Source of the DNA: Sinorhizobium saheli
Lineage (GTDB): Bacteria > Pseudomonadota > Alphaproteobacteria > Rhizobiales > Rhizobiaceae
Assembly (NCBI RefSeq): GCF_001651875.1
Contig: NZ_LNQB01000066.1
Span: forward strand, 1-64,000
DNA: 64,000 bases
Direction: 5' to 3'
The translations under genes and the position numbers were made by a program. Below are positions 24,843 through 37,760 of this stretch, in pieces (the stretch's first letter is position 1; each line of letters opens with the position of its first letter). Under the pieces are notes generated by a model. The model did not search any database, was not told the DNA's origin, and worked only from the letters and a program-made list of their open reading frames with translations.

Positions 24843-24889
24843 TGGTCGCGTTCGCTGAAATCGACATCCATCGGATCTGGGAGGAGACG

Positions 24890-25525
24890 ATGACGGACGT
24901 CAAATGGACGATCAAGGGTCGCGAATTCATTCATTGCAATTGCGCCTATGGCTGCCCCTGCCAGTTCAATGCGCGCCCGACGCAGGGGCACTGCAGCGCA
25001 ATCGGCGTCGTCGAGATCGAGCAAGGGAACCATGGCGCCACGCGCCTCGACGGCTTGCGCTGCGCCATGATCGTGTCCTGGCCGGGTGCCATTCATGAGG
25101 GCAGGGGCGCTGTCGTGCCGATCATCGACGAGCGTGCCTCCGACGGCCAACGCGAGGCGCTGCTGCGCATCATGAGCGGTGAGGATACCGAACCCGGGGC
25201 GACGTTCTTCCAGGTGTTCGCGACGACCTTCGAGACCTTCCACGATCCGGTCTTCGCGCCGATCGATTTCGAGGTCGACATCGAGGGCCGGACGGCCCGC
25301 GTGAGCATACCGGGATGGATCGAGGCCCGCGGCGAGCCGATCCTCAATCCGGTGACGGGCGCCGTTCACCGCGCCCGGCTCAACCTTCCGGACGGCTTCG
25401 AATACGATCTCTGCGAGGTGGGCCGCGGCTGGGCCGACACGACCGGGCCGATCGCGCTTTCCCTGTCGGATTCGCATGCCCATTTCGCCCGGCTTCATAT
25501 GACCGAAAGCGGCGTGGTCCACTGA
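24890..25525 (+). CDS. DUF1326 protein
   Basis: This 211-residue protein opens with a cysteine-rich stretch, HCNCAYGCPCQFNARPTQGHC (about residues 15-35), whose four closely spaced cysteines could bind a metal or heme. The rest is a mixed alpha/beta domain ending in ALSLSDSHAHFARLHMTESGVVH. This matches the DUF1326 family, which has no firm function. The ribosome site GGGAGGAG precedes the ATG. The next gene, DUF2182, begins five bases after its stop; the two families are commonly paired. Confidence 0.88.
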   Translation: MTDVKWTIKGREFIHCNCAYGCPCQFNARPTQGHCSAIGVVEIEQGNHGATRLDGLRCAMIVSWPGAIHEGRGAVVPIIDERASDGQREALLRIMSGEDTEPGATFFQVFATTFETFHDPVFAPIDFEVDIEGRTARVSIPGWIEARGEPILNPVTGAVHRARLNLPDGFEYDLCEVGRGWADTTGPIALSLSDSHAHFARLHMTESGVVH

Positions 25526-30282: not shown

Positions 30283-32523
30283 TCAGCCGCCCGTCAGCAG
30301 CTCGAACAGCGTCGTGCGGCGGGTCGTCCCCGTCGTTTCGCCGACGCCCGCCGGCGGGATCGGTCCGCCGGCCTGTTCCGCCGGGCGCACCTGCTCGACG
30401 GCGGCCGTGCCGTCGACGCCCGCGGGCGGCGCGGGGAAGGCCTCGGGATCGCCGCCCATGAGGCCGTCCGGCGCCGTCTCGCCGGCCGCGGCCATGCCGC
30501 CTTCGTCGAAGACCGGCTGCACGCCCGTCGTGCCGAAGAGCGGCGAGGGCGAAAGCCCCTCATGCGCGGCGACCATGAAATCATGCCAGGCCTTGGCCGG
30601 CAGGCCGCCGCCGGTGACCTTCTTCATCGACTTGCCGTCGTCGTTGCCGAACCAGACGCCGGTCGTCAGGTTCGACGTGTAGCCGACGAAGAGCGCGTCG
30701 CGGAAGGATTGCGTCGTGCCGGTCTTGCCGGCCGCCTCCCAGCCGGGCAGGCGTGCCTTCTTGCCGGTGCCGTTCGTCAGCACCCGCACCATCATCCGGT
30801 TCATCTCGCTGACGATCGCCGGGTCGAGCACGCGCGGCGGGTTGTCGTAGGTGTTTTCGTAGAGCACCGTGCCGTCGGCGGTGGAGATGCGGCGGATGAC
30901 ATGCGGGGTCGCCTTGAAGCCGCCATTCATGAAGGGGGCATAGGACGAGGTGAGTTCCACCAGCGTCACCTCCGACGTGCCGAGCGCGATCGAGGCGTTC
31001 GCCTGCATCTCGGAATCGATTCCCATCCGGTGCGCGAGCTGGACGACGTTCTGCGGTCCCACTTCCATCACCAGCTGGGCGGCAATCGTGTTCAGCGAAT
31101 TGGCGAGCGCATCGGCGAGCGTCACCTCGCCGCGATATTTCTGGTCGTAGTTTTCCGGCGTCCAGTTGCCGATCCTGACCGGCGCGTCGTTCCTGACCGA
31201 CATCGGCGTGCGGCCGATCTCCAGCGCCGCCGCGTAGACGAAGGGCTTGAAGGCCGAGCCCGGCTGGCGCTTCGCCTTGGAGGCGCGGTCGAACTGGCTC
31301 TCGGCATAGTCCCTGCCACCGACGAGCGCCCGGATGGCGCCGGTGCCGTCGATCGAGACGAGGGCCGCCTGCGACGCGTTGAGCTTGCCGCCCTCGGCAT
31401 CGAGCGTCGCGGCGATGACCTCTTCGGCCTTCTTCTCGAGCGTGAGGTCGATCGTCGTGTCGATGACGAGGTCCTGCTTGACCTCGCCGATCATGCCGGG
31501 AAGCTGGTCCATCACCATGTCGGCGACGTAGTGCTCGGCCCCCGACCAGAAGCTCTTCGCCCTGGTCGGCGTCTGCGACATCGCCGTCTTGATCTCGGCA
31601 TCGGTGACGTAGCCCTCCTCGCGCATGGCGCCGAGCACCACCTGCGCGCGCGCCTCCGCGGCTTCCGGGTCGCGCGCCGGCGACAGCCGCGACGGGGCCT
31701 TGAGGAGCCCGGCGAGCACCGCCGCCTCGCCGAGATTGACGTCGCGCGCCGACTTGTTGAAGTAGCGCCGCGAGGCCGCCTCGACGCCATAGGCGTTGGA
31801 GCCGAAGAAGACGCGGTTGAGATACATCGCCAGGATCTGGTCCTTGGTGTATTTCTGCTCCAGCCAGAAGGCGAGCAGCACCTCCTGCACCTTGCGCTCG
31901 AGCGTGCGTTCCGGTGACAGGAAGAGGTTCTTGGCGAGCTGCTGCGTGAGCGTCGAGCCGCCCTGGACCATGCGGCCGCTCGTGAGGTTGGTCAGCATGG
32001 CGCGCACGAGCCCCAGCGGGTCGACGCCGAAATGCGAATAGAACCGCCGATCCTCGATGGCGATCACCGCCTGCGGGATATAGGGCGACATGTCCTCGAG
32101 CGCGAGCGCCTCGCCGCCGGTCGCGCCGCGATTGGCGATGATGTCGCCGTTGACGGCGAGGATCTTGACGTTCGGCGGACGGTCGGGGATCGACCAGCTC
32201 GTCGCGCTCGGCATGCGCGCCCCGTAATAGAGCACCAGCCCGCCGACGCCGATCGCCCCCCATATGCCAAGCACGATGCACCAATAGGCAAGCCGCCGGA
32301 CGAGCCCGAAGAAGCCGCCGCCGGAACCGCCGCGGCCGCCGCCCCTCTTCGCCGGCCTGCCGCGCGTCTCGCGCTTGCCGCGGCCCTCGGATGCCTTGGC
32401 GCGTTTCAAGGGCTTGCGGCCGCCGGCCGTCACGCGATCGCTCGCATCGACGCGGAACTCGTCGCCGTCGTCGTCTCCGCCGAAGGAAGGTTCGATCCGT
32501 TGTCCCGATTTGCCGCTCGCCAT
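30283..32523 (-). CDS. Class A penicillin-binding protein (transglycosylase/transpeptidase)
   Basis: This 746-residue bifunctional murein synthase has a basic Lys/Arg/Gly-rich cytoplasmic tail (1-70) and one membrane helix (about 77-100). The GT51 glycosyltransferase domain has catalytic Glu157 in EDRRFYSHFGVD and a second conserved Glu in ERKVQEV. The transpeptidase domain shows Ser423-x-x-Lys426 (GSAFK), Ser-Leu-Asn at 476-478 and KTGT at 600-603. A Pro/Gly/Ala-rich C-terminal tail follows. It polymerises and cross-links peptidoglycan in the periplasm. The PBP1 subfamily (ponA- or pbpC-type) cannot be fixed. Confidence 0.93.
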   Translation of the reverse strand: MASGKSGQRIEPSFGGDDDGDEFRVDASDRVTAGGRKPLKRAKASEGRGKRETRGRPAKRGGGRGGSGGGFFGLVRRLAYWCIVLGIWGAIGVGGLVLYYGARMPSATSWSIPDRPPNVKILAVNGDIIANRGATGGEALALEDMSPYIPQAVIAIEDRRFYSHFGVDPLGLVRAMLTNLTSGRMVQGGSTLTQQLAKNLFLSPERTLERKVQEVLLAFWLEQKYTKDQILAMYLNRVFFGSNAYGVEAASRRYFNKSARDVNLGEAAVLAGLLKAPSRLSPARDPEAAEARAQVVLGAMREEGYVTDAEIKTAMSQTPTRAKSFWSGAEHYVADMVMDQLPGMIGEVKQDLVIDTTIDLTLEKKAEEVIAATLDAEGGKLNASQAALVSIDGTGAIRALVGGRDYAESQFDRASKAKRQPGSAFKPFVYAAALEIGRTPMSVRNDAPVRIGNWTPENYDQKYRGEVTLADALANSLNTIAAQLVMEVGPQNVVQLAHRMGIDSEMQANASIALGTSEVTLVELTSSYAPFMNGGFKATPHVIRRISTADGTVLYENTYDNPPRVLDPAIVSEMNRMMVRVLTNGTGKKARLPGWEAAGKTGTTQSFRDALFVGYTSNLTTGVWFGNDDGKSMKKVTGGGLPAKAWHDFMVAAHEGLSPSPLFGTTGVQPVFDEGGMAAAGETAPDGLMGGDPEAFPAPPAGVDGTAAVEQVRPAEQAGGPIPPAGVGETTGTTRRTTLFELLTGG

Positions 32524-32837
32524 GCCGGAAGGATAGGTCCCCTTGAGGCCGGACCGGGCTCGATCATCGCTTCCAAGCGATCCCCGGCGGCGCAGTTGTC
32601 GCGCGTCGGGCCTGTCCCGTCCGCTCGTGCCGATCCGTTGAACTTTAAATGCGGCAATTTAAGGGGGAGTTAAGGACGGGGTTTCGCGGATTGTCGACAT
32701 CTTTCAAATTGTTACCGCGGCCGCCGTCGACCGGTGCCGTGGATGCCGGATTTCGCCGATTCCGATGCTGCCCTGCATTATCTGCAATGCTGCAATGCAA
32801 CATTGTCCCTGTTAAATCAGGGGGGATGATTTATTCT

Positions 32838-32965
32838 CCTCCTTGTCGACGCGCTGTACCTCCTCCCACGGCGCCCGACATGAGATCGGTTCCACTCCTC
32901 CTCCCAGAACCGATCGAGTTCAAAGACCCCGACGCCACCTCCTCCCGGCTCGGGGTCTTTTCTCT
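32838..32965 (+). ncRNA. αr14-like small RNA with three CCTCCTCCC loops
   Basis: Three hairpins in a row each expose CCTCCTCCC, the complement of Shine-Dalgarno sequences. Hairpin 1 (32851-32874) has GCGCTGT pairing with ACGGCGC. Hairpin 2 (32884-32915) has a perfect 9-bp stem, GATCGGTTC with GAACCGATC. Hairpin 3 (32922-32960) has a perfect 11-bp stem starting AAAGACCCC, followed by a T-rich tract, and is the intrinsic terminator. A further CTCCTCC is unpaired at the 5' side. This is the design of the αr14 ('cuckoo') family, including S. meliloti NfeR1. The 5' end is estimated, and the promoter was not identified. Confidence 0.82.
32922..32962 (+). terminator. Intrinsic terminator of the αr14-like RNA
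   Basis: An 11-bp perfect stem (32922-32932 with 32950-32960) and a 17-base loop containing CCTCCTCCC precede TCTCTTT. The same hairpin therefore ends transcription and presents an anti-Shine-Dalgarno loop. Confidence 0.85.
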
Positions 32966-33021
32966 TTCTGGGCGTCCGCTGTCGTCGTGGTGGCCGCCGC
33001 AAGGCGCCTATCAGCGGACCC

Positions 33022-33909
33022 ATGAACCCCAAGGCTAACGGCTACGTCTTCGCGCTTCTGGCGATCGTCATCTTCTCGATCCAGGACGGCATCTCGAAGC
33101 ACCTCGGCGCGCTCTATCCGCCGGTTTTCGTAGCGATGATCCGCTACTGGGCCTTCGCCGCCTTCGCTGTGGCGCTCGCCGCGCGCGCGCCGGGCGGGCT
33201 TGGCGCCACCGTCAAGACGGGGAGGCCGCTCCTGCAGCTGCTGCGCGGCGCGCTTCTGCCGGCGCAGATCGTCGCCGTCATCACCTCCTTCACCATCGTC
33301 GGGCTCGCGCATTCCCAGGCGATCCTCGCGGCGACGCCGCTTTTCGTCGCCCTGCTCTCGATGCCGCTCCTCGGCGAGCGCGTCGGCTGGCGCCGCTGGA
33401 CGGCGATCACCATCGGCCTCATCGGCGTGCTCCTGATCCTGAAGCCGCAGGAGGGGGCGTTCAATCTCGACTTCCTGCTGCCGCTTACCGCAGCCTCGAT
33501 GTTCGCGATCTATGTCATCACCACGCGGCTTGCGAGCCGCGCGGATTCGGCGATGACCAGCTTCTTCTACACCGGCGTCGTCGGCGCCGCCGCGATCAGC
33601 CTCGTCGGTCCGTTCTTCTGGGCGACGCTGTCGGCGCCGGACTGGGGCTGGATGGTCCTGCTCTGCATCACCGGCTCGTCGAGCCATTATTTCCTGATCC
33701 GCGCCTATGACATGCTGGACGCCGCCGCGGTGCAGCCGCTCACCTACCTGCAGCTCGTCTTCGCCTCGATCATGGGCGTCGGCATGTTCGGCGAAACGCT
33801 GACGGCGAACATGATCGTCGGCTCGGTGCTGGTCGTCGCCGCCGGCATCTTCACCGTGTGGCGCGAGCACGTCGTCGCGCGACGCAGGGCCGGCCTGCCG
33901 CCGCGGTAA
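33022..33909 (+). CDS. EamA/DMT-family permease
   Basis: This 295-residue inner-membrane protein has ten hydrophobic helices arranged as two EamA repeats; for example, AILAATPLFVALLSMPLLGERVGWRRW ends the first and PLTYLQLVFASIMGVGMFGE the second. Members export or import small metabolites and amino acids. The substrate is unknown. It starts about 60 bp after the small-RNA terminator and has an AAGGC-type upstream sequence but no strong ribosome site. Confidence 0.9.
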   Translation: MNPKANGYVFALLAIVIFSIQDGISKHLGALYPPVFVAMIRYWAFAAFAVALAARAPGGLGATVKTGRPLLQLLRGALLPAQIVAVITSFTIVGLAHSQAILAATPLFVALLSMPLLGERVGWRRWTAITIGLIGVLLILKPQEGAFNLDFLLPLTAASMFAIYVITTRLASRADSAMTSFFYTGVVGAAAISLVGPFFWATLSAPDWGWMVLLCITGSSSHYFLIRAYDMLDAAAVQPLTYLQLVFASIMGVGMFGETLTANMIVGSVLVVAAGIFTVWREHVVARRRAGLPPR

Positions 33910-35611: not shown

Positions 35612-36001
35612 GCTCGCATCAGGGGGCCGGCCGGATCGAGGCGTGCCTTCCGGTTCGCGGTGGTGCCCGAGCGGTCAAGCCTGTCCCGCGCAATTAAAAA
35701 TTCGCGCCCGGAACCCGACGCCTCGCTCCTCAGCCCTGCCAATAGCCCACTTTCCCATTCTGTTCTGTTTTGTTTTCAAAAAAGGGAAGCATCCTGCGGC
35801 GGGCAGGTCAAGCAGCGATTACGATTGAGCGCGACGCGCTTCGATGCATGTCGCCCAAAAGTGTGGCGCGGTTTTGGGGCGACGACATGCATCAGGACCA
35901 ACGCATGTCGCCCAAAAGTGTAGAGCGGTTTTGGGGCGCAGACATGCATAATGCATGTCGCCCAAAGCGCGTCGCAAGAAATGCGTTCGATCGCGACGCG
36001 C
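35612..36001. other. Intergenic repeat-rich region
   Basis: This 390-bp gap between two genes of the same strand holds a pair of tandem palindromic units plus a third partial unit. These are flanked by CGCGACGCGCT direct repeats near 35830-35840 and 35992-36002. The first 200 bp show no feature except A/T-richer sequence near 35755-35790. Confidence 0.6.
35844..35972. repeat. Tandem palindromic units, GCATGTCGCCCAAAA type
   Basis: Two units start at 35846 and 35903 and share GCATGTCGCCCAAAAGTGT, GCGGTTTTGGGGCG and GACATGCAT. A partial third starts at 35953. Within unit 1, ATGCATGTCG pairs with CGACATGCAT and CCCAAAA with TTTTGGG. Unit lengths are 57 and 50 bases. The type is familiar as a rhizobial dispersed repeat. 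Confidence 0.8.
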
Positions 36002-37508: not shown

Positions 37509-37545
37509 AAAAAACCGTCACGGCGCGGAGGCGGCGCCGTGACGG
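37509..37545 (-). terminator. Strong intrinsic terminator, minus strand
   Basis: A 12-bp perfect stem of CCGTCACGGCGC type with a 7-base loop is followed by six T residues. It ends the small-RNA candidate or any transcript from the membrane protein gene upstream. Confidence 0.85.
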
Positions 37546-37645
37546 CTCTTTGAAAGCGGGACAAAGGCCCGGAGAGGGGGATGAGGCCTTTGTCCTCCAT
37601 CTGGTGCGGGCGGGGGACAGGCCAATCACCAGACACGCGGCAATA
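37509..37645 (-). ncRNA. Probable small RNA with two hairpins and terminator
   Basis: On the minus strand, GGACAAAGGCC pairs perfectly with GGCCTTTGTCC (11 bp, 37559-37595) around a pyrimidine-rich loop. After CTTTCAAAG comes the 12-bp perfect stem 37515-37526 with 37534-37545 and a T6 run (37514-37509). No coding gene fits this strand here. The 5' end near 37645 is a guess. αr-type small RNAs have been described in this part of the S. meliloti chromosome and one may be αr7, but I cannot confirm the identity. Confidence 0.62.
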
Positions 37646-37760
37646 ATATCGTGCCGCTCCATATGATTTGAGGATTCAAATGTGGCTTTTCAAGGATTGC
37701 CCGACTGAATCGCACATTACAAATGTGTAACGTTTCCGTGAGTCTCCGACGGGCGATTCG

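Follow-up and report, generated by a model that had tools for sequence, protein, structure and literature searches.

A conserved chromosomal αr14 small RNA of Sinorhizobium saheli with a probable AniA/PhaR site in its promoter

We analyzed a 64,000-nt stretch of the Sinorhizobium saheli genome (contig NZ_LNQB01000066.1, positions 1 to 64,000; hereafter the window) that carries a small RNA (sRNA) locus between a penicillin-binding protein (PBP) gene and a DMT permease gene. The features of the locus are as follows, in window coordinates.

30283-32523, minus strand: flanking gene for a bifunctional PBP (Transgly and Transpeptidase; Pfam)
32774-32787, plus strand: LysR-type box of the T-N11-A form (TGCA-N6-GCAA) that resembles the LsrB site of the NfeR1 promoter; a putative binding site
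32785-32805, no strand assigned: AniA/PhaR-type palindrome CAATGCTGCAATGCAACATTG, 21 bp, core at 32791-32799 (weight matrix, conservation)
32810-32836, plus strand: core promoter region, block GTTAAATCAGGGGGGATGATTTATTCT, partly conserved in a 31-sequence alignment; putative -35 and -10
32844-32961, plus strand: αr14 sRNA of about 118 nt, with the 5' end taken from the homologue SmelA075 and a predicted 3' end
32844-32880, plus strand: hairpin 1, anti-Shine-Dalgarno (anti-SD) loop at 32859-32867; pairs 32851-32857/32868-32874, extended by 32844-32848/32876-32880
32884-32915, plus strand: hairpin 2, anti-SD loop at 32897-32905; pairs 32884-32892/32907-32915
32922-32961, plus strand: hairpin 3, terminator-like, third anti-SD at 32938-32946 in its loop (fold, pairs, covariation)
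33022-33909, plus strand: flanking gene for an EamA/DMT-family permease (Pfam EamA)

An earlier, sequence-only reading of this DNA had described three stem-loops that each carry an anti-SD motif and had assigned them to the αr14 family. Both the observation and the family call proved right, as judged by the motifs, the fold and a covariance-model match. The Rfam αr14 model (RF02344) matched positions 32841-32962 of the plus strand with 77.6 bits against a curated cut-off of 58.8 (E 2.9e-12 for the window), and the RNA covered the model end to end (1-123). The motif CCTCCTCCC occurs three times on the plus strand (32859-32867, 32897-32905 and 32938-32946), all inside 88 bases, and there were no further copies on either strand of the whole window; 0.92 copies were expected in shuffled windows, and at least three were found anywhere in 7 of 100 shuffles. 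The 128-nt stretch that holds the motifs has a predicted folding energy of -54.9 kcal/mol versus a shuffle mean of -30.8 (z = -7.68; none of 200 shuffles equaled it), and every motif copy is unpaired in the predicted fold, with CCUCCUCCC unpaired in the loop of each of the three hairpins as in other αr14 RNAs. The proposed limits of hairpin 2 and the perfect 11-bp stem of hairpin 3 stood, but hairpin 1 is longer than the 32851-32874 first proposed. Hairpin 3 pairs 32922-32932 with 32950-32960 and, past one unpaired base, adds three pairs (32934-32936/32947-32949); it runs into a T-rich tail at 32956-32969 (TCTTTTCTCTTTCT), the first bases of which are still within the stem. Judged by its sequence (11 bp, 3 bp and the tail), the third hairpin is a predicted intrinsic terminator, as expected of an αr14 RNA. 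It is nearly certain that the locus encodes an αr14 sRNA. Open reading frames span the RNA (for example, 32649-33038), but we rejected a peptide-coding reading, since conservation tracks the loops and pairs and relatives differ by indels of 1 to 3 bases.

The DNA of the locus was matched in 33 of 33 Sinorhizobium/Ensifer genomes, our own included. We aligned the window with 29 of the other genomes and an E. aridi record (L039, 91% protein identity) that may duplicate one of those 29, which gave 31 sequences and left out three genomes. Loop conservation in related genomes, which the sequence-only reading had named beside a covariance-model match as a check on its proposal, was borne out: all three loops are exact in 30 of the 31 sequences, and in the remaining one (L023) the third loop differs by a single base. 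The structure is likewise conserved. Across 26 distinct RNA sequences, 98.7% of the stem pair cells hold standard pairs, and compensatory changes affect five pairs, with 31 cells altered on both sides; 0 of 500 shuffles did as well on either count, while 29 of 500 reached the observed number of further pair types, one covariation measure. Hairpin 3, with 13 pairs counted, is paired in 100% of cells across the 26 sequences.

The flanking PBP and permease genes were both found at 30 of the 31 aligned loci, and this place corresponds to SMc02856/SMc02855 of S. meliloti. Since all 33 genus genomes match and the flanking genes stay together at nearly every locus, the location is not unusual, and the earlier suspicion that it may not match the known copies was unfounded. 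Outside the genus, locus L114 pairs an αr14 RNA with a neighboring homologue of this PBP (70% over 264 aa), and the permease gene was not found there; two loci of other genera that came from a scan of genome contigs gave no αr14 match by blastn. Elsewhere in the window, an αr7 sRNA with C-rich loops (RF02342, 131.1 bits) lies at 37509-37654 on the minus strand, 4.5 kb from the αr14 copy; the αr14-αr7 spacing is 3.0 kb and 5.6 kb in two genomes of other genera (G065 and G094). Around 35770-36000, a unit that recurs in the translations of overlapping ORFs (MSPKSV.RFWG.DMH) suggests short intergenic DNA repeats.

The 5' end of the RNA was placed through SmelA075, an αr14 copy on pSymA of S. meliloti that is 86% identical to window positions 32766-32960 over 195 columns, promoter included. 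Its RACE-confirmed 5' end at pSymA 1220693 (PMC2873474) aligns to window position 32844, so we place the RNA at 32844-32961 by homology. SmelA075 carries a 17.0-bit PhaR-type site at the same place as the palindrome of the window copy, but it differs in lying on a megaplasmid, away from the PBP/DMT site, and in having a weaker palindrome. SmelA075 has been reported on Northern blots; its expression was strong after a heat shift, intermediate in GMS and very low in a complex medium (PMC2873474); a review states that of six S. meliloti αr14 copies only NfeR1 is reliably detected by Northern blotting (PMC7143759). By homology to SmelA075 and NfeR1, the window copy would be transcribed and may act in trans by pairing with the ribosome-binding sites of mRNAs.

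The most interesting part of the locus is a promoter element that was absent from the sequence-only reading. We built a weight matrix from 25 AniA/PhaR sites of S. meliloti, those of Table 3 of a 2025 paper with an EMSA entry of Efficient or Weak, without the site orthologous to that of the window (PMC12542648). The palindrome at 32785-32805 scored 21.9 bits, the highest of 63,980 window positions, with the next nonoverlapping position at 11.2 bits, and none of 1,919,400 positions simulated with the dinucleotide make-up of the window reached this score. It falls inside the range of the training sites (13.7-28.4 bits; 11.8-27.7 in leave-one-out scoring). The palindrome has the form CTGC-N3-GCAR. 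All 31 aligned sequences carry it, with scores of 19.3-24.7 bits and a start 73-75 nt ahead of loop 1. Compared by eye with the published S. meliloti motif WNWD2NYGCRNYGCRNH2WNW (PMC12542648), the window site has an exact core and leaves the two outermost W positions unmatched. It lies at -59 to -39 relative to the homology-placed 5' end; for comparison, the published distances of PhaR sites from the TSS are 65 and 47 for phaP1 and 75 and 47 for phaP2 (PMC12542648). A PhaR-family gene is present in the S. saheli genome (PF07879, E 4.7e-30), and a PhaR-family protein is encoded in 54 of 61 sampled genomes, our own included.

Upstream, the LysR-type box overlaps the outer edge of the palindrome in the window, and TGCR-N6-GCAW occurs within 80 nt upstream in all 31 aligned sequences; the conserved block of the promoter extends upstream to about 32774. 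In S. meliloti, the NfeR1 promoter has an LsrB site of the form TGCA-N6-GCAT and NfeR1 requires LsrB (PMC10746234).

Two sites in the published table lie beside αr14 copies. Table 3 lists CAATGCTGCAATGCAACATTC at chromosomal positions 207016-207036 and assigns it to SMc02856 (cell wall), whose TSS is 176 nt away, and to SMc02855, with its TSS at 184 nt; both proteins are marked undetected, and the binding entry is "NE" (not evaluated) (PMC12542648). The window palindrome is one base off this sequence, and the exact 21-mer stands directly before an αr14 RNA in four genus genomes. The table also lists AGATGCTGCACTGCAGCATTA at pSymB 1605799-1605819 for rpoE8 (undetected) and acyP (not regulated), with an EMSA entry of "Efficient" (PMC12542648). 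We found an αr14 RNA of S. meliloti 1021 at pSymB 1605826-1605943, so this EMSA-bound site lies directly before the pSymB αr14 copy. By our own reading it sits between the -35 and -10 of that copy, and it scores 23.4 bits with the site itself excluded from the matrix. Two copies were found on pSymA, SmelA075 and L109; the latter (best score 3.2 bits) is the one plasmid copy, of three found in S. meliloti, that lacks a PhaR-type site. The main text of PMC12542648 contains neither "sRNA" nor "NfeR1" and uses "small RNA" three times, in passages that name MmgR; the part consulted here, 12 of its 22 places on rpoE, acyP and RNA, does not mention an αr14 RNA. A PhaR-αr14 link is stated nowhere in the consulted parts of the open-access literature searched, which included PMC10746234, PMC8844928 and PMC12542648, and the connection appears to be unreported. 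The link is well supported by the sequence together with the published EMSA at a sister copy, and PhaR control of the window RNA is probable by sequence.

PhaR-type sites also stand before αr14 copies at other loci. The S. saheli genome has nine αr14 matches, seven of them above the cut-off, and 4-8 matches per genome were seen among the matches listed for 24 genus genomes. We scored seven of our own copies, leaving out L008 and the ninth match, and found a site in four (L001, L003, L004 and the window copy); the others fell below 14 bits (L002, 6.6; L006, 12.4; L007, 1.0). L008 (1501-1617; G000 C79:15273-15389) is a diverged sister of the window copy that scores 48.5 bits, below the Rfam cut-off, with hairpins 2 and 3 nearly the same and the third loop shortened. 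For the genus, we selected 60 regions from the matches listed, excluding copies at the window locus, and a loop finder placed the αr14 RNA in 52. A count of 64 records, nearly all from other loci, includes four from our own genome as well as L101, an orthologue of the window copy, and omits L080, L084, L086, L090, L092, L094, L095 and L097; 27 of the 64 have a site of at least 14 bits in the 165 nt that precede loop 1, and by eye many of these sites fall between -35 and -10. The remaining 37 lack a 14-bit site, among them all 10 records classed by eye as NfeR1-type. We also defined, post hoc and with these promoters in view, a strict pattern, WTGCTGCRNYGCARCAT. The 6-Mb genome has two occurrences of it, one at the window locus and the other immediately ahead of the C57 copy of αr14.

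Across Rhizobiaceae, a site lies within 350 nt upstream of 20 of 30 αr14 loci and within 500 nt of 23 of 30 (the best 30 of 60 genomes, two from our own genus and the others from other genera). At control αr7 loci (the best 30 of 51 genomes), 0 of 30 had a site at either distance, and none of 93,234 positions qualified. The link of site to RNA is unsure in several other genera, where some 256-312 nt separate the site from loop 1. Three of the αr14 loci, too small a number for a conclusion, come from genomes that gave no PhaR hit (G064, G074 and G079); L142 and L137 lack an upstream site and L135 has one. L135 (G079) retains its PhaR-type site at 22 bits in a 96%-complete genome in which a PhaR-family gene was not found. 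Seven loci of other genera (L124, L128, L132, L133, L135, L136 and L138; about 1036-1253) have paired PhaR-type palindromes 22 nt apart upstream of the αr14 RNA, which recall the doubled sites of phasin promoters (PMC12542648). Two further loci of other genera hold tandem triple αr14-like clusters behind a single upstream PhaR-type site (L115, 1520-2223; L134, 1357-1770).

The closest known relative is NfeR1 (Smr14C2, SmelC397), the S. meliloti αr14 RNA, which shares the three hairpins, the CCUCCUCCC loops, the variable stems and an upstream T-N11-A box and has a similar length (115 nt). However, NfeR1 lies at another locus and is repressed by NtrC (PMC10746234), its LsrB box ends in GCAT where the box of the window copy ends in GCAA, and NfeR1-type copies in the genus lack a PhaR-type site (0 of 10) whereas the window copy has the palindrome. 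We rejected orthology to NfeR1 on the locus and the promoter, which lacks the exact TGCA-N6-GCAT box; another αr14 copy in our own genome (C72:123424-123546) carries that exact LsrB box. MmgR (αr8) of S. meliloti is also an anti-SD sRNA under AniA/PhaR repression, and its promoter holds a PhaR palindrome that has been tested by EMSA (PMC7143759, PMC12542648), but it belongs to another RNA family, is 77 nt long, has its anti-SD in the first loop and regulates PHB accumulation itself. AbcR1/2 (αr15) likewise use anti-SD motifs on transporter mRNAs and share the target SMc03121 with NfeR1, but they are Hfq-bound and have two distinct anti-SD motifs, and NfeR1 does not bind Hfq. The cuckoo family, which we take to include αr14, has been linked in print to the CcsR RNAs of Rhodobacter, which are also small hairpin RNAs. 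CcsR1-4 differ in that an RpoHI/RpoHII promoter drives their cotranscription with the gene for CcaF1, a DUF1127 protein; a DUF1127 gene for cotranscription of the CcsR/CIN1 (cuckoo) type is missing from the immediate neighbors of the window copy, which are the PBP and EamA permease genes. Rhodobacter also has RS0680a, an RNA with two anti-SD stem-loops (PMC3927594).

The three loops of NfeR1 act redundantly on ribosome-binding sites, and its validated targets SMc03121 and SMb20442 are transport proteins (PMC10746234, PMC8844928). In our own genome, GGGAGGAG-N3-9-ATG occurs 59 times, compared with 11 for a reversed control. We read 30 of the 59 matches and dropped five (four ORFs of <60 aa and one duplicate); 12 of the remaining 25 annotated ORFs are transport genes by Pfam, a count without a matched control. 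Within the window, a GGGAGGAG ribosome-binding site at 24879-24892 (L162) before a DUF1326 gene is a predicted αr14 target. Broad repression of transport genes, which the sequence-only reading had proposed, agrees with the NfeR1 literature and the predicted targets, by analogy with which this copy may have the same function. We also compared 132 pSymB genes as anti-SD targets, matching genes to tags by eye from their products. Four question-marked names were counted with the "other" genes, although SMb20163, SMb20354 and SMb20631 among them are on the PhaR-activated list. PhaR-activated genes did not differ significantly from other pSymB genes (18 versus 114) in duplex energy (p = 0.18) or match length (p = 0.11), so the target side stays an inference. 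Solute-binding-protein genes showed stronger anti-SD complementarity (9 versus 123; one-sided p = 0.012, uncorrected for the three tests made). Among the module 6 proteins, which are lower without PhaR, 30% are transport-related, and only seven PhaR-activated genes carry a PhaR motif (PMC12542648). The PhaR-activated list includes SMc03117, SMc03120 and SMb20443 (PMC12542648), which are tag neighbors of the NfeR1 targets SMc03121 and SMb20442 and may share operons with them.

We consider it likely that this conserved chromosomal αr14 copy is under the PHB-sensing repressor AniA/PhaR and is released by PHB to silence uptake mRNAs. PhaR binds PHB, which titrates it, and a phaR deletion leaves the proteome unchanged unless cells store minimal PHB or none; TY, a complex medium, hardly supports PHB storage and therefore leaves PhaR active (PMC12542648). 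When PHB is scarce, free PhaR would occupy the palindrome at -59 to -39, beside the LysR-type (LsrB-like) activator box, and keep the RNA low. As PHB granules accumulate, PhaR would be titrated away and the RNA made, and its three redundant CCUCCUCCC loops would pair with GGGAGGAG-type ribosome-binding sites and silence nutrient-uptake and catabolic mRNAs. The low level of SmelA075 in complex medium fits PhaR repression, and its medium level in GMS may also agree if GMS supports PHB. The heat induction of SmelA075 is not explained by PhaR and requires another input.

Several other explanations must be weighed against PhaR control of an uptake-silencing RNA. The loops might mimic the 3' end of 16S rRNA and bind Shine-Dalgarno sequences indiscriminately, as a general translation brake. 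The motif is indeed an extended anti-SD, and many nontransport genes are also preceded by good matches; we nevertheless think this unlikely, given the transport genes at 12 of 25 GGGAGGAG-N3-9-ATG sites (no matched control) and the greater complementarity of solute-binding-protein genes (one uncorrected test of three). The RNA could also be an ordinary αr14 copy beside a PhaR site that controls the flanking PBP or DMT permease gene, as the Table 3 assignment to SMc02856 and SMc02855 implies (PMC12542648). That site is 176 and 184 nt from the TSSs of two undetected proteins as against -59 to -39 of the RNA, and like sites precede αr14 copies elsewhere, on other replicons, which makes control of the flanking genes quite unlikely.

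The dependence of NfeR1 on LsrB (PMC10746234) raises a different concern, that the palindrome belongs to a LysR-type (LsrB-like) activator site and not to PhaR, and that the copy is stress-induced like NfeR1. A TGCR-N6-GCAW box is upstream in all 31 sequences and overlaps the edge of the palindrome in the window. In other copies, however, the palindrome occurs without the box, among them the pSymB copy, whose palindrome is bound by PhaR in EMSA (PMC12542648), and at 14 bits the palindrome is missing from all 10 copies that we assigned to the NfeR1 type; we regard this account as improbable. It is more doubtful still that the locus is a conserved but rarely expressed spare, largely redundant with NfeR1 and with no regulatory role of its own. 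Only NfeR1 was reliably detected by Northern blotting under the conditions tested (PMC7143759), as a spare copy would predict, but the promoter block, loops and stems are kept across the genus, and the close paralogue SmelA075 is expressed (PMC2873474).

Beyond the window copy, which PhaR would repress, the chances seem about even that the PHB sensor of Rhizobiaceae has the αr14 family as its RNA arm and that PhaR represses several copies, including those of the window and pSymB. If this is true, a filled carbon store would free anti-SD RNAs and stop translation of uptake systems, which would explain why many transport proteins of S. meliloti appear "activated" by PhaR though few activated genes carry its motif. 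The αr14 RNAs are a candidate target for two PhaR sites of Table 3, one of which is bound in EMSA; of the proteins assigned to these sites, acyP was not regulated, and rpoE8, SMc02855 and SMc02856 were undetected (PMC12542648). The αr14 link offers a testable route for the positive effects of PhaR on transporters. To our knowledge, there is no clear reason for the many near-identical anti-SD RNAs in each rhizobial genome. The promoters suggest that the copies differ in input and not in output, such that NfeR1 would respond to nitrogen through NtrC and this copy to stored carbon through PhaR.
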